Shown here in pieces: positions 5,188 through 11,261 of a DNA stretch of 57,076 nt. The translations under genes and the position numbers were made by a program. The notes under the pieces are model-generated. The model ran no database searches, had not been told where the DNA came from, and saw nothing but the letters and a program-made list of their open reading frames with translations. The DNA comes from Ignavibacteria bacterium (GTDB lineage: Bacteria; Bacteroidota; Ignavibacteria; Kapaibacteriales; UBA2268): contig JAOAEE010000024.1 in the NCBI GenBank assembly GCA_026416955.1, positions 1 to 57,076 of the forward strand, read 5' to 3'. The first letter of the stretch is position 1; every line of letters begins with the position of its first letter.

Positions 5188-6192
5188 ATGAAAATACTAA
5201 TCATTAGACTTTCATCGCTCGGAGATGTAATTCTTTCCACATTTATGGTTCGAATGTTACACAACATTTATCCAAATGCAAAAATCGACTTCCTTGTAGC
5301 AAAAGAATTTTCAATTGTATTTAAATATAATCCAAGGATAAACAAAATATTGGAATACGATAAATCACTTCCTTTCTATTCTCATTTGCTAAACACTTTT
5401 TCGATTAACAATCCAAGTCATTACGATGTAATAATCGATTTGCAGAACAATATTCGAAGTTGGGTCTATTCTTGGGGGAAAAGCTCCACGGTTTTTCGTT
5501 TCAATAAGCGACGATTCTATAAACTAAAATTAGTTTACCTCAAAAGTCGTCCAAAAGAGTTCTTACCGATTCCTATTTTGTATCGAGATACCTTTCCTTC
5601 TTTGCAACAAATCGACGACAAATTAGGTTTGGAACTTTGGACAAGCAAAGATGAAGGTTCATACAAGCCTCATTCCAAAACTTTAGATAAAATTGACCTT
5701 AAAAGAATTGCTATTGCACCAGGTGCAAAACATTTTACCAAAATATATCCACCCGAAAAATATGTGGAACTTATTAAATTTTTTCAATCAAACTTTAATT
5801 CCGAAATATATTTGCTTGGTGGGGAAACGGACCGCAAAATCTGTTGGCAAATTTCCGAAAAGTGCAGCAATGTTTCCAATTTGTGTGGGGAACTCGATGT
5901 AATTCAAACTGCAGAGTTTCTTGATGATATAAACTTAGTAATCTCGAACGACAGTGCAGTAGTCCATATTGCATCGGCTCGGAAAGTTCCAGTCGTTGTG
6001 ATTTATGGTTCCACAGTTCCAGCATTTGGGTTTATCCCCTTTCGTACCAAAAGTTTAATTATTGAAAACAATAGTGTGAATTGTCGACCTTGCACCCATT
6101 ATGGCCGCTCGAATTGTCCAAAAAAACATTTCAATTGTATGAATGAACTTAAACCCGAAGAAATATTTAACAAAATTTCCAATTTTGCTTGA
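5188..6192 (+). CDS. glycosyltransferase family 9 (heptosyltransferase-like)
   Basis: A 334-residue GT-B fold enzyme. The N-terminus (KILIIRLSSLGDVILSTFMV) is the GT9 signature found in ADP-heptose:LPS heptosyltransferases. The donor-binding half includes IAIAPGAKHFTKIYPPEKY, LLGGETDRK and the NDSAVVHIASA motif near residue 255. A cysteine-containing C-terminal stretch (RPCTHYG, then CPKKHFNCM) is usual for the family. It probably adds heptose or a related sugar to a lipopolysaccharide core at the inner face of the membrane. It is monocistronic and divergent from the STAS gene. Confidence 0.88.
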   Translation: MKILIIRLSSLGDVILSTFMVRMLHNIYPNAKIDFLVAKEFSIVFKYNPRINKILEYDKSLPFYSHLLNTFSINNPSHYDVIIDLQNNIRSWVYSWGKSSTVFRFNKRRFYKLKLVYLKSRPKEFLPIPILYRDTFPSLQQIDDKLGLELWTSKDEGSYKPHSKTLDKIDLKRIAIAPGAKHFTKIYPPEKYVELIKFFQSNFNSEIYLLGGETDRKICWQISEKCSNVSNLCGELDVIQTAEFLDDINLVISNDSAVVHIASARKVPVVVIYGSTVPAFGFIPFRTKSLIIENNSVNCRPCTHYGRSNCPKKHFNCMNELKPEEIFNKISNFA

Positions 6193-6505
6193 ATAAGCAT
6201 AGTGATAATCAACTTTTTTCTTTTCACTTTATCTAAATAAAATCCTTTAAAAGGAGAATATTTAAATAGCTATATAGAGAAAACTGTTGAGTTTTGTACT
6301 TATCACAGATTGCTGGAGAATTAAATTATTGGGTAGTACTAGTCTTTCAACAAGAGTAATAATTTAATCTTTACTGATGTTAGAATTTTCTTAATAATTG
6401 CTAATTGAACTAAACTATGGAATAACCTAATGCTACTTTTATCGATTGCTCACTTTTAGTTACAAAGCAGGAAAAGGAATTTAGGTCAAAAATATTACAA
6501 AAGTT
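6193..6505. other. convergent intergenic region
   Basis: This is non-coding space between the GT9 gene and dsrO, whose 3' ends face each other. It contains the hairpin at 6320-6368 and a small palindrome near 6242-6256 (TCCTT/AAGGA). There is no room for a dsrP gene and no membrane-protein frame in either direction. Confidence 0.6.
6320..6368. terminator. possible bidirectional hairpin between convergent genes
   Basis: The perfect 11-base arms ATTAAATTATT (6320-6330) and AATAATTTAAT (6358-6368) are separated by 27 bases. The stem is all A-T, so it is weak as an intrinsic terminator, but its place between convergent units suits one. It may equally be chance in AT-rich DNA. Confidence 0.3.
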
Positions 6506-7273
6506 TCAAACCAAATAGTATACTTCGGGGCTGGTACTCAACTCGGGTTTGCGTCGGATTGAAAATCGTTCAGAAAGCACTTGCCGAATCTCGGAGCCCG
6601 GGTCCGAAAGGTCTCCGAAAAACAAAGCCTTTGATGGACAAGCAACGACACAAGCGGGCATTTGCCCTCGGGCAAGACGTTCGGCACAGAACGTGCATTT
6701 TTCAACAACGCCACGAGTGCGAGTCGGGAAATCTGGATTTAAATTTTTTATGTATGGTCTTGGGTCTTTCCAGTTGAAACTGCGGGAGCCGTATGGACAA
6801 GCAGCAATACAATAGCGGCAACCAATGCAACGATGCCAATCCATCATTACGATACCATCCTCTCGTTTCCAAGTGGCTTGAGTCGGACAAACATTGGTGC
6901 AAGGTGGTTTATCGCAATGGTTGCAAAGCAACAATACGGTTTGATGGTTCATTCCACTGGGTAAATAAATATTCTCCTGGGTAATAAAGGCATTGTGGAA
7001 TTTATCTTTCCAAATCCATTTTATCTCGTCTTTTGGATTGTCGAAATTAGGAACATTGTGATAGTTGTGGCAAGCAACGACACATTCTTTGCAATCTGGG
7101 GTTCGGTCGCATTTTTGAACATCTATCGCCATTGCCCAACGTTTCGCTTTTAATCCCTCGATTTTGTGTTCATTATTATTTTCTTGTGATGTAAGTTCAA
7201 ATGTTATTTTGCTTGCAAGAGCAATTCCACCACCAAAACTAACTATCTTTAAAAAGTTTCTTCTATTAATCAT
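6506..7273 (-). CDS. dsrO: DsrO-like periplasmic iron-sulfur protein
   Basis: This 255-residue protein begins with a Tat signal (MINRRNFLKI and a hydrophobic glycine-rich core). It carries sixteen cysteines in four ferredoxin-type groups: C55/C61/C64/C68, C117/C120/C125/C129, C149/C152/C155/C159 and C193/C196/C208/C212, enough for four [4Fe-4S] clusters. This matches DsrO/HmeA, the exported electron carrier of the DsrMKJOP complex. An open frame extends to 7312, but AGGGAGG at 7280-7286 lies six bases before the ATG at 7273, and this start puts the twin arginine at the N-terminus. The start overlaps the dsrJ stop as ATGA. It is the last gene of the operon; DsrP, its usual membrane partner, is not encoded next to it. 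Confidence 0.88.
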   Translation of the reverse strand: MINRRNFLKIVSFGGGIALASKITFELTSQENNNEHKIEGLKAKRWAMAIDVQKCDRTPDCKECVVACHNYHNVPNFDNPKDEIKWIWKDKFHNAFITQENIYLPSGMNHQTVLLLCNHCDKPPCTNVCPTQATWKREDGIVMMDWHRCIGCRYCIAACPYGSRSFNWKDPRPYIKNLNPDFPTRTRGVVEKCTFCAERLARGQMPACVVACPSKALFFGDLSDPGSEIRQVLSERFSIRRKPELSTSPEVYYLV

Positions 7274-7680
7274 TTCAAACCTCCCTTTGGTTCGATATGA
7301 CAATCCCAACAATAAGGCTTTACATCGAGGTAGTTATGGCATTGGTCGCAAAACTTTTGCTTGTTGTTGTGACATTTCAAGCAAGCCAAAGTTAAACTCA
7401 TTTCGAGGGGTTTGCCGTTATGGGTCAGAACTACTCCATTTCTCACAACATAACGGTAGTTCATTCGAACTACACTATCGCGCCAAAAATTGAGTAAATT
7501 CATATGGTAGTGGTTCATATAGTCTTTATTTTCGACACATTGTTTAGAGTCTTTTGGGTATTCGAGTTGTGGTTTTACTCTACTTTGAGCCGAGGATAAG
7601 TTTATCCAAACCGGCAAGCTGAAAAAAGCAAAAAATACAATCAAACCAAGGATAATTTTCCAGCCGTCGTAAAGTTTCAT
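7270..7680 (-). CDS. dsrJ: DsrJ-like triheme cytochrome c
   Basis: A 136-residue protein with an uncleaved-looking N-terminal hydrophobic anchor (about residues 9-27) and three CxxCH haem sites in the C-terminal third: CLKCH at 100-104, CDQCH at 111-115 and CWDCH at 124-128. A lone cysteine at position 48 fits the cysteine haem ligand known in DsrJ. The protein should be membrane-anchored and periplasmic, exchanging electrons with DsrM and DsrO. AGGAGG lies seven bases before its ATG, inside the tail region of dsrK. Its stop overlaps the dsrO start. Confidence 0.9.
   Translation of the reverse strand: MKLYDGWKIILGLIVFFAFFSLPVWINLSSAQSRVKPQLEYPKDSKQCVENKDYMNHYHMNLLNFWRDSVVRMNYRYVVRNGVVLTHNGKPLEMSLTLACLKCHNNKQKFCDQCHNYLDVKPYCWDCHIEPKGGLK
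7280..7286 (-). promoter_or_regulatory. ribosome binding site deciding the dsrO start
   Basis: AGGGAGG on the minus strand lies six bases upstream of the ATG at 7273 and inside the end of dsrJ. It favours 7273 over the in-frame upstream codon at 7312. Confidence 0.75.
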
Positions 7681-7681
7681 T

Positions 7682-9289
7682 TTACACCTCCTGATTAATT
7701 AAAGGTTGAAATCGAAGGTCAGTCTCGCGAGGCTTTTCCCCACTCATTACAAGAGCATTACCAACCATTTCGTGGACACCACCTACTTCAAGCCCTGGAG
7801 CCCAAAATTCAAATAGATGAGGAAGATTTGCTTTGTCGATTGCGCAAATACATAGGCAAATATTCACTCCGTATTTATCCTTAACATATTTAGCAGCATT
7901 CGCTCTTGGAAAGCCACCTCGCATTCTCATTTCGAAATTCTCGTCGGTTCCAAGCCCTGCTCCACTTCCGCAACAGAAAGTTTGTTCGCGAATTGTATTA
8001 TCGGGCATTTCAGTAAAGTTCCGCATTACGTTTTTGATAATATACCGTGGTTCTTCGATAAGCCCCATTCCACGCGAAGGATTGCAAGAGTCGTGGAAAG
8101 TAGCGTGCCAATGGTCGTTACGGCTTGGGTCGAGTTTAATTTTCCCGTGGTAAATTAAATCGGCTGTAAATTCACAAATGTGAACCATTTTGGTGGATTT
8201 AGCATTTTCGAAAACTGTGCCTGTTATGGGTGAACGTGGCACCTCAAGGAAATCTGCCGGCCCGTTCATTGTATCCATATATTGATGAATCACTCTCCAC
8301 ATATGACCGCATTCACCACCAAGTATCCATTTTACTTTTAGCCTCTTTGCTTCGGCATAAATTTTATTGTTTAGTCTTTTCATTAATTCGTGCGAAACAA
8401 AAGAACCAAAATTTCCACCTTCCGATGCATATGTGCTAAATGTATAGTCTAATCCAATTTCGTGGAACAACATAACATAGCCTAGAAAAGTGTAGTAATG
8501 TGGAGTTCCAAAAAAGTCGGCAGATGGGGTAACGAACAAAACTTCTGCACCTTTTTTGTTCAAAGGGATATCTATGTGTATTCCTGTAATTTCTTCTATA
8601 TCGGCAGTAGCCATTTCCAAACTATCTTTCATACCGTGGGGTTGGATTCCAAGATGATTACCAGTACGGTAAGAATTCTTCACTGGGGTCATAATCCAAT
8701 CGATGTTTACACCAATTAGGTTCATCAATTCTCGAGTAAGAAAGGTAATCTCGGCAGTATCAATACCATAAGGACAAAAAACGGAGCAACGGCGACATTG
8801 CGTACATTGATAAAAGTAATAAAACCATTCACGCAAAACATCAAAAGTAAGGTCGCGTGCACCAACCATTCTTCCCATAATTTTCCCAGCAGTGGTGAAT
8901 TCTCTTCTATAAACAGACCTAAGTAGTTCGGCTCGTAGAACTGGCATATTTTTGGGGTCGCCACTACCAAGAAAGAAATGACATTTATCGGCACAAGCAC
9001 CACATCGCACACAAATATCCATAAAGATTTTAAGGGAGCGGAATTTTTCCAGTCTTTCCCTTAACCCCTCGAGTATAATCTCCTTCCAATTTTCTGGGAG
9101 TTTCCAATCGGGGTCGGTAGTTTGCCATTTCCTTGGGTTTGGTTGGTCAAGATATATCAATGCTTCTTCGCTTCCAGCGTAATTGAACGTTCCTTTGCGA
9201 AACTCAACTGGAACATCCATCCAATTTTTGAACTTCGGTTTTAAGTTAATTGTTTGAAGTAGTTCTTCTGGTTTGATTTTCGTGGCCAT
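7682..9289 (-). CDS. dsrK: DsrK-like heterodisulfide-reductase-type subunit
   Basis: This 535-residue cytoplasmic iron-sulfur protein is related to HdrD. Two [4Fe-4S] ferredoxin motifs are visible: C93/C96/C99/C103 and C162/C165/C168/C172. A C-terminal CCG domain follows, with HDSCNPSRGMG and CCGSGAGLG elements near residues 395-450, which in the family binds the catalytic [4Fe-4S] centre for disulfide or DsrC trisulfide chemistry. With DsrM it links the quinone pool to cytoplasmic sulfite reduction or sulfur oxidation. dsrAB and dsrC are not in the window. AAGGAGG lies six to seven bases before the ATG. One base separates the start from the dsrM stop. Confidence 0.92.
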   Translation of the reverse strand: MATKIKPEELLQTINLKPKFKNWMDVPVEFRKGTFNYAGSEEALIYLDQPNPRKWQTTDPDWKLPENWKEIILEGLRERLEKFRSLKIFMDICVRCGACADKCHFFLGSGDPKNMPVLRAELLRSVYRREFTTAGKIMGRMVGARDLTFDVLREWFYYFYQCTQCRRCSVFCPYGIDTAEITFLTRELMNLIGVNIDWIMTPVKNSYRTGNHLGIQPHGMKDSLEMATADIEEITGIHIDIPLNKKGAEVLFVTPSADFFGTPHYYTFLGYVMLFHEIGLDYTFSTYASEGGNFGSFVSHELMKRLNNKIYAEAKRLKVKWILGGECGHMWRVIHQYMDTMNGPADFLEVPRSPITGTVFENAKSTKMVHICEFTADLIYHGKIKLDPSRNDHWHATFHDSCNPSRGMGLIEEPRYIIKNVMRNFTEMPDNTIREQTFCCGSGAGLGTDENFEMRMRGGFPRANAAKYVKDKYGVNICLCICAIDKANLPHLFEFWAPGLEVGGVHEMVGNALVMSGEKPRETDLRFQPLINQEV

Positions 9290-9290
9290 A

Positions 9291-10292
9291 TTATACCTCC
9301 TTTTCTACTGGAATACCAGCTGCTTTCATTTTATCGCGGAACTCATCCTCATATTCCTCGTAAGTATGTACTGGAACATCATAGTTCCAAGGATTTATAT
9401 GGCGCTTCATACGATTGTTGTTTGCAAGATTTCGTGTCGGGCTAAGAAAAACACCACCTAGGTGCATCAATTTACTCATTGGGAAATAGATTAAAAGGGT
9501 GCAAACAAATGTAAAGTGTATAACAAACAATGGACTTAATTTATTTATCAAATCTCCACTAACACTTTGAAAAGACAAAATCGCAACAGTAAATTCCTTT
9601 ACAGCAACTAAATCTGTTTTGAAGAAATAGCGCATTAAAATACCAGTTGCAGCAATTCCAAGAATTAAGAGAAGAGGGAAGTAATCCGAAGGAAGGGAAA
9701 CAATTCTAACTTTAGAATCGAAAATTCTTCGCAAAAAAAGATAAAGCAACCCAGCAACAATTAAAATATTTGTAATGTAAATAATCGGAAGTCCCACTTG
9801 GAAAAATCCATCAATATTTTGCAAAAAGGTCACGAAAGATGGTATTGGTTCGGTAAAGAATCGAAAATGACGAAGGAAAATAATTAAAAAAGACCAATGG
9901 AAGGCAAGACTAAAAAACCAAAGCCATTTGTCTACCGAGTAGACAAGTCGGTCGCCACGAAATTCTGCTTGAGTATTCCTAAATAAAGAACGGAAAAACA
10001 AAATTTCGAGCAACATTCGGCCCAAGGTCCCTAGCCACGAACTGGGATTATCCAATTTGTTCTGCCTTATCCAAGGAAGCGATTTTTCTTGACCACAAGT
10101 TGTTGTAATTCTAAAAGGAACTGGGGAACGCCCCCAACGAATAATTCTCGCGATAACACCAACAATGAACACAACAAGAGCAACATAGGGAATGACTGTA
10201 GTAAAGAAAACTTTAAGAAAAGGCAGAACACCAGCAATCCAAGCAAGAAAAAGAATAATTGCAAAGTAAATGAACGAAATTCCCAATCCCAT
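9291..10292 (-). CDS. dsrM: DsrM-like membrane cytochrome b subunit
   Basis: A 333-residue protein of the nitrate reductase gamma/HdrE type. An N-terminal pair of hydrophobic helices (about 3-46) is followed by a block of about four more helices between 120 and 280, with several histidines placed as haem b ligands (AFHWSFLIIFLRH, and FVIHFTFVCTLLIYFP). It is expected to oxidise or reduce menaquinol and exchange electrons with DsrK. The cytoplasmic C-terminus has NNNRMKRHINPWNYDVPVHT. It follows the RsbRD-like gene by 19 bases and has AAGGA before the ATG. Confidence 0.88.
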   Translation of the reverse strand: MGLGISFIYFAIILFLAWIAGVLPFLKVFFTTVIPYVALVVFIVGVIARIIRWGRSPVPFRITTTCGQEKSLPWIRQNKLDNPSSWLGTLGRMLLEILFFRSLFRNTQAEFRGDRLVYSVDKWLWFFSLAFHWSFLIIFLRHFRFFTEPIPSFVTFLQNIDGFFQVGLPIIYITNILIVAGLLYLFLRRIFDSKVRIVSLPSDYFPLLLILGIAATGILMRYFFKTDLVAVKEFTVAILSFQSVSGDLINKLSPLFVIHFTFVCTLLIYFPMSKLMHLGGVFLSPTRNLANNNRMKRHINPWNYDVPVHTYEEYEDEFRDKMKAAGIPVEKEV

Positions 10293-10311
10293 AAATATTA
10301 ATCCTTATATA

Positions 10312-10830
10312 TTATTCATTTGTTTCATCTTTAAGTAAAGAATATTTTTCGTTCAAGCGGTCAAGAATTTTTCCATAACGGTTGCGTATCTCGTTTTTTT
10401 GAATTTCGGCAATTCTTTCTTTTATTTCAACATACTTTTTTAGACTTACAGCAACAAGTTTTTCGTAGAAATCGAATGATTGAATTACATCATTAATATC
10501 CGAGCAATTAATACTTTGCTCGCAGTATCTTTTCCATAGGTATTCAAAAATATTCACAGAAGTCCAAGGGTCTAATCCTTCAAGAGTGCGAATTTTCAAA
10601 ATTCCCTCGATTGCCCTTTCGAACTCCAAAGAACTAAAATTAGCCTCGTGGATTGTTTCCAATATTTTCAATAAGCAATTGTAAACATTGTATCCAATGG
10701 GATTAGTAAAAGGAGCATCTTTGTTTAAAATGTATTTTCGCGATGGTTCTGGGTAATTCGAAAGAATCCACTCGAACCATCCTTGCAACAAACTTGCTTT
10801 GTTTTCCCTTACAAACTCAACAAAATTCAT
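10312..10830 (-). CDS. RsbRD N-terminal-domain protein, first gene of the dsr operon
   Basis: A 172-residue soluble, mostly helical protein resembling the RsbRD_N domain (N-terminal sensory domain of RsbR-type stressosome co-antagonists) without the C-terminal STAS domain. The block beginning LLQGWFEWILSNYP and the later DPWTSVNIFEYLWKRYCE segment are the parts I recognise. Proteins of this type are found next to dsrM in a number of sulfur-metabolising bacteria. It is probably the first gene of the rsbRD–dsrMKJO transcript. A structural or regulatory role for the complex is inferred from position only. Confidence 0.7.
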   Translation of the reverse strand: MNFVEFVRENKASLLQGWFEWILSNYPEPSRKYILNKDAPFTNPIGYNVYNCLLKILETIHEANFSSLEFERAIEGILKIRTLEGLDPWTSVNIFEYLWKRYCEQSINCSDINDVIQSFDFYEKLVAVSLKKYVEIKERIAEIQKNEIRNRYGKILDRLNEKYSLLKDETNE

Positions 10831-11261
10831 CCTAAAAAATATATTACCCTAACTAATTTAACATTCATCTAATAAAGCAAAGATTAGGAAAGAACATTTT
10901 GTATTTTTTTTGTTGATTAATGGAGATTTAGAAGTAAAAAATTATCTTCAACAAAAGAAATTCGTTTCTAAAAAACTTAAAAAATTGAATTAGCATAAAG
11001 ATAATTTTTTATACTGGGTTTGATTTTTGAAAATACTTTTACCAAACTTGTTCTAAACTTCTAAATTTAAACTTCAATGCGTTTTGTTTTCGAAGTGCAA
11101 AATGAATTGTTTTTTTCCAAAAAGACTTGCAAAAATTAAATTTTAAAGAGAATTTACTAAATACCAATTTTCTGAGATTTAGTGTAAAAATTATGTTCAA
11201 GTCAATTTTCTCATTGAATATTCTTAATTTTGTAAAATTTTTTTTGAAAAAAGAGGAGACG
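10831..11261. other. divergent promoter region of dsr operon and guaB
   Basis: About 430 AT-rich bases between the divergent RsbRD-like gene and guaB. An in-frame extension of guaB to 11127 exists but is rejected. A TAATTTTG box lies at 11225-11232 for guaB. On the minus strand the nearest match for the dsr operon (TAATCTTTG, around 10872-10880) has one extra base in the spacer of the box. I could not identify a regulator site. Confidence 0.5.
11225..11232 (+). promoter_or_regulatory. TAATTTTG -7-type box before guaB
   Basis: It matches TAnnTTTG, 29 bases before the guaB ATG. There is no clear -33 TTG. Confidence 0.4.

Follow-up and report, generated by a model that had tools for sequence, protein, structure and literature searches.

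The Kapabacterium from which the 57,076-nt contig JAOAEE010000024.1 (the window) derives very probably encodes the normal five-subunit DsrMKJOP complex of a sulfate reducer, with dsrP split from dsrMKJO on the chromosome. The preliminary description of the window had regarded DsrP as missing and had offered two readings, one in which DsrP is encoded elsewhere and one in which the lineage makes do with four subunits, DsrO docking on DsrM/DsrJ. The first of these stands, and the idea of a complex without DsrP is not supported.

Genes of the complex in the window and elsewhere in the genome

Five genes, all on the minus strand, lie within the interval 6506-10830. They are listed here together with the region beyond dsrO.

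10312..10830, minus strand: dsrT-like gene, RsbRD_N-domain protein of 172 aa (Pfam PF14361, 26.0 bits, cut-off 24.3)
9291..10292, minus strand: dsrM, membrane cytochrome b subunit of 333 aa (NCBIfam NF038037, 488.8 bits, cut-off 300)
7682..9289, minus strand: dsrK, cytoplasmic iron-sulfur subunit of 535 aa (NCBIfam NF045796, 729.7 bits, cut-off 400)
7270..7680, minus strand: dsrJ, triple CXXCH cytochrome of 136 aa (NCBIfam NF038038, 145.1 bits, cut-off 100)
6506..7273, minus strand: dsrO, periplasmic iron-sulfur subunit of 255 aa (NCBIfam NF045797, 308.7 bits, cut-off 200)
6193..6505, no strand: gap of 313 bp 3' of dsrO, the place of dsrP in linked operons (six-frame translation)
5188-6192, plus strand: heptosyltransferase-like gene, convergent, beyond the gap (ORF list and domain search)

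As can be seen, DsrM, DsrK, DsrJ and DsrO each exceed the respective NCBIfam equivalog cut-off, in agreement with the earlier statement that the four genes are intact and form a single run. The CXXCH sites of DsrJ are at residues 100, 111 and 124, and DsrO has 16 cysteines and a twin-arginine N-terminus, MINRRNFLK; judging by the sequence, the ATG at 7273 is a likelier start for dsrO than the TTG at 7312 of the ORF list. The RsbRD_N gene occupies the place given to dsrT in the available text of Thiel et al. 2019 (PMC6338057). Stop codons interrupt all six frames of the gap at 6193-6505, where no dsrP remnant or NrfD-like stretch was seen by eye. It was thus correctly noted that no dsrP adjoins dsrO within the window, the stop-ridden gap being followed by a convergent gene.

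At the scale of the genome, DsrP is not missing. The genome (G000, a 98% complete draft of 2.49 Mb in 78 contigs) was searched with the NrfD family, as the preliminary description had proposed, and three NrfD-family genes were retrieved, on contigs C71, C20 and C7. One of them is DsrP:

G000:C71:4791-5948, plus strand: dsrP, intact, 385 aa (NCBIfam DsrP model, 463.7 bits, cut-off 350)

This dsrP stands alone: a pair of ABC transporter genes is transcribed divergently from it, an unrelated gene follows 159 bp downstream, and no iron-sulfur partner gene was found beside it. All five subunit genes of DsrMKJOP are therefore present in the genome, and what is absent is the adjacency of dsrP and dsrO, which is usual, though not required, for such a complex.

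Other sulfate-reduction genes form one cluster on contig C42, with the following matches.

Contig C42: sat, 524.0 bits, above cut-off
Contig C42: aprB, 205.6 bits, and aprA, 904.7 bits, each above cut-off
Contig C42: qmoC, 396.9 bits, above cut-off
Contig C42: dsrA, 574.2 bits, and dsrB, 526.0 bits, each above cut-off
Contig C42: dsrC/TusE-family gene, 122.2 bits, above cut-off

Since this cluster carries dsrAB and dsrC, the partners of DsrMKJOP, DsrAB and DsrC, are present, and the search suggested earlier for dsrAB, dsrC and aprAB/sat found all of them in this genome. Other genes of the cluster we take to be dsrD, dsrN, dsrL, dsrM2 and dsrK2. NCBIfam NF038017, considered as a Qmo subunit, was ruled out, being an ABC permease. 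There are two DsrC-family matches in the genome; the second (G000:C30:5602-5895, L012, 121.2 bits) is on a 7.5-kb contig, away from the C42 dsrC. After dsrC on C42 there is a second, DsrM/DsrK-like pair (L010:9381-11973), whose DsrM-2 candidate (L010:10987-11973) matched no NCBIfam model at 1e-20; in the available text of Thiel et al. (PMC6338057), the pair in this position is called dsrM-2 and dsrK-2.

Separation of dsrP from dsrO among related genomes

Sixty genomes, our own included, were searched for DsrP, and 12 of these were then searched for DsrO. DsrP exceeded the cut-off in nine of the 60, and DsrO did so in the same 9/9. The comparison of operon order among relatives that had been called for shows that the separation recurs: dsrP is detached from dsrO in five of the nine genomes (G000-G003, which belong to one genus, and G022, from another genus) and directly follows dsrO in the other four (G009, G015, G024 and G029). 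DsrO was above the cut-off in 10 of the 12 genomes, that is, in the nine with DsrP and in G012, where the match (200.3 bits against a cut-off of 200) has an in-frame stop and the adjacent match to the DsrP model is weak (86.7 bits); the two G012 matches are taken as another complex. In G004, of the same genus as the window, neither DsrP nor DsrO exceeded the cut-off, which probably means that this member of the genus has lost the pathway.

The nine Kapabacteria group as a single clade in the DsrP tree (SH-aLRT 99) as well as in the tree of DsrM+K+O (SH-aLRT 100). The trees omit L074, which is the same contig as that of G015, and comprise the 51 rows left once those without full DsrM, DsrK or DsrO were dropped. 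Since the clade is found in both trees, joint inheritance rather than replacement from outside is indicated, which speaks for one history of DsrP and DsrMKO in Kapabacteria. The five detached DsrP proteins constitute one branch of the DsrP tree with a support of 91; the DsrMKO tree does not unite the corresponding five genomes in one clade, G009, which is linked, branching with them at an open fork. There may thus have been one split or two, the two trees disagreeing. Between G000 and G001-G003, dN was 0.071-0.090 for DsrP, 0.115-0.155 for DsrO and 0.122-0.163 for DsrM, with dS saturated or not computable in these comparisons; the value is lowest for DsrP, which has changed little among the genus members, as expected under constraint. 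DsrJ of G003 stands outside the dN table, the gene being present at 74% identity.

One can imagine a true four-subunit DsrMKJO, in which DsrO sits on DsrM/DsrJ and the C71 dsrP serves something else, given that dsrMKJO has been kept as a tight unit without dsrP and that no gene for an iron-sulfur partner lies beside the detached dsrP. We found no support for such a complex and consider it very improbable, since dsrP and dsrO co-occur in every genome with DsrP above the cut-off, DsrP is a strong equivalog match, conserved and sharing its history with DsrMKO, and dsrP bears the upstream element of dsrT and sat and, in the relative MS-B_bin-24, is reported in the same expression class (see below). 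It is extremely unlikely that DsrP is replaced by an NrfD-type protein encoded on C20 or C7: the two further NrfD-family genes do exist, but their products fall short of the 350-bit cut-off of the DsrP model, scoring 45.0 and 66.2 bits, and the genes adjoin long Fe-S protein genes and, on C7, also one that encodes a CXXCH motif of the cytochrome type. This arrangement resembles, we presume, that of alternative complex III. With a true DsrP in the genome, no NrfD-type replacement is therefore needed.

Finally, there is practically no chance that an assembly or binning error took dsrP from beside dsrO, as might be suspected in a draft of 78 contigs, since dsrO lies inside its contig, followed by 313 bp and then by intact genes, and since all four members of the genus, G000-G003, show the separation and share, next to dsrP and in divergent orientation, an ABC transporter ATPase gene; an error at dsrO is excluded by G001, a closed genome (CP058732.1) in which dsrP and dsrO are 138,072 bp apart, and by G002, in which they are 143,991 bp apart on the same contig.

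The split of an otherwise normal five-subunit system could be located by comparing 80 loci with DsrP (L065-L144) fetched from several phyla, 15 of which (L129-L133 and L135-L144, DsrP identity 39-46%) are probably other complexes. In 70 of the 80, dsrO directly precedes dsrP. The ten loci without dsrO are four from Kapabacteria in which roughly 8 kb are available upstream, one from Kapabacteria at a contig end, four others cut at contig ends and one (L105) with runs of N. The last of these, from Zixiibacteriota, was rejected as a second detached dsrP: no DsrO above the cut-off was found in the L105 record, and since the locus contains 400 N and belongs to a joined draft, it was not counted.

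A CoADR/rhodanese-like gene follows dsrO and dsrP consecutively in 28/80 loci, all outside Kapabacteria (CoADR at most 250 bp from dsrP). The same gene lies 11 bp downstream of the detached dsrP in G022, L068 and L069 (L069 being G022 itself) and is followed by a HemA-like gene, and in G015, where dsrP is linked, the CoADR/HemA-like pair is 5.7 kb further on. The names CoADR/rhodanese-like and HemA, for genes downstream of dsrP, are presumed ones, and so are the names KorA-like, MtaB-like and ABC transporter for other genes. Since the detached dsrP of G022 and L068 keeps the CoADR/rhodanese-like gene downstream, the break is placed at the dsrO/dsrP junction: an older dsrMKJOP operon appears to have broken there, and in the genus of the window dsrP appears to have later lost its downstream genes too.

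Two further observations were made at these loci. In several phyla among the 80 loci, dsrMKJOP is followed by the CoADR/rhodanese-like gene and often by a HemA-like gene, neighbours that hint at a connection with sulfur transfer and the supply of sirohaem. A short single-copy gene of the c31 family is found just downstream of dsrP in G003 (L060:4714-5445) and just downstream of dsrO in G022 (L148:6199-6897); it was discarded as a mark of the old operon end, being in unrelated places in the other eight genomes.

The upstream element ACA-N7-TACAAAA

The detached dsrP, the dsrT-like gene at the head of dsrMKJO and sat, which leads the main dsr cluster, share an upstream element, ACA-N7-TACAAAA. 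In our genome it is located as follows.

Window 10897-10913, minus strand: element before the dsrT-like gene, 66 bp upstream of the start
G000:C71:4698-4714: element before the detached dsrP
G000:C42:24928-24944: element before sat

The element was first noticed by eye in the dsrT and dsrP upstream regions of the four genus members and in the sat upstream region of G000; the regions independent of its discovery are those of sat in G001-G003 and the three of G022. Upstream of dsrT, dsrP and sat in G000-G003, 11 of the 12 regions have an exact copy and one has a copy with one mismatch, 66-85 bp before the start codon; for sat of G001-G003, two copies are exact and one has one mismatch. All three G022 regions (dsrT, dsrP and sat) carry the element with at most one mismatch, 82-109 bp before the start, so that the distance ranges from 66 to 109 bp overall. 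Control upstream regions gave no exact copies and three copies with one mismatch among 114, and stricter, truly intergenic controls gave none and two, respectively, among 38. Dinucleotide shuffles led to an expectation of 0.04 exact copies in 15 regions, with 12 observed.

In the four genomes with linked genes, the best match before dsrP has three mismatches in each case; the lack of the element there is expected, since dsrP is an inner gene of the operon. Elsewhere in the linked genomes a weaker element is seen, with 1, 1 and 2 mismatches before sat and 3 and 2 before dsrT. Genome-wide counts of the element against those of its backward-read control were 34/20 in G000 and 32/18, 31/19 and 23/12 in the others, a modest excess. 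The other 31 sites in G000 comprise 20 inside ORFs, 6 with no gene start near and 5 at most 250 bp from a start. One site precedes an apparent 2-oxoacid:ferredoxin oxidoreductase gene (G000:C60:2844) by 71 bp, and twice in G000 the element lies at most 250 bp from a single-strand-binding-like gene. Compared by eye, the HcpR sites given in PMC545781 look different from the element.

Since the detached dsrP shares the element with dsrT-MKJO and the sat cluster, the parts can still be co-expressed, and we infer that the three are probably regulated jointly by one factor. We propose that after the ancestral dsrMKJOP operon broke at the dsrO/dsrP junction, dsrMKJO and the dsrT-like gene would have stayed one unit, that of the window, and dsrP would have become a separate unit, that of C71, the common element before dsrP, dsrT-MKJO and the sat-led cluster leaving the parts expressible together. 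DsrP and DsrO would then join DsrMKJ in the membrane to assemble all five subunits, with electrons passing between menaquinone and DsrC/DsrJ, as is the role of DsrMKJOP. The part assigned here to DsrP and DsrO is based partially on the available text of PMC8076601.

More tentatively, the element might mark a promoter class or bind a dedicated factor through which dsrT-MKJO, dsrP and the sat-led cluster are controlled in this branch of Kapabacteria. If so, one complex would be built from two unlinked units under a common switch acquired after dsrP broke away, and the level of separately expressed DsrP relative to DsrMKJO could be tuned, for instance to oxygen in the course of a day. The regulator, if found, would offer a way into the sulfate respiration of Kapabacteria, which are among the few branches of Bacteroidota that reduce sulfate.

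Comparison with known systems

The separation of dsrP is itself already published for the genus. The available text of Thiel et al. 2019 (PMC6338057) describes 'Candidatus Thermonerobacter thiotrophicus' as having dsrTMKJO with dsrP "located elsewhere in the genome", and the legend of Figure 8 gives dsrP as its own line. The same text assigns all 20 sulfate-reduction genes of Table 3 of MS-B_bin-24 (RCNO, our G003), among them dsrP, to the night-time expression classes D and E. A dsrP elsewhere in the genome with co-regulated expression had been named beforehand as the observation that would speak against a complex without DsrP, and it is what we found, co-regulation being indicated by the shared upstream element and by night expression in this relative.

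With 'Ca. Thermonerobacter thiotrophicus', as far as that text describes it, the window genome has in common the genus, the gene order and the dsrP separation, and the order of genes on C42 fits the cluster sat-aprBA-x-x-qmoC-dsrABD-N-x-dsrL-dsrC-dsrM2-dsrK2 given for MS-B_bin-24; it differs in being another species, with a DsrP 88% identical to that of MS-B_bin-24. The available text of PMC10591310 counts the family with the sulfate reducers that have DsrAB of the reductive type, DsrD and DsrL-2. Our additions to PMC6338057 are small, consisting of the distance in the closed genome, the location of the break, the trees and the shared element; this last is the only part of the case that may be new. 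A false lead is removed, the lineage being no evidence for a Dsr complex without the quinone-interacting DsrP; the remainder is modest, a membrane-complex operon split at one junction with its parts apparently kept in step through a shared upstream element.

Within the NrfD-like family, DsrP of this genome is close to the DsrP1 type. The available text of PMC8076601 assigns 20 residues of D. vulgaris DsrP (DsrP1) to the quinone site and the ion path, and, compared with that list rather than with the D. vulgaris sequence, 17 of the 20 match at zero offset, while every other offset between -8 and +24 gave fewer than 5 matches. The three that differ are K152, where the list has R, T204, where it has S, and a Lys that is at 328 instead of 329. 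A search of solved structures in the PDB at E 0.001 retrieved no DsrMKJOP subunit P, only three alternative complex III chains. Linked dsrMKJOP operons, in other Kapabacteria and in other phyla, encode the same five subunits, and the genus of the window differs from them in that its dsrP stands alone.
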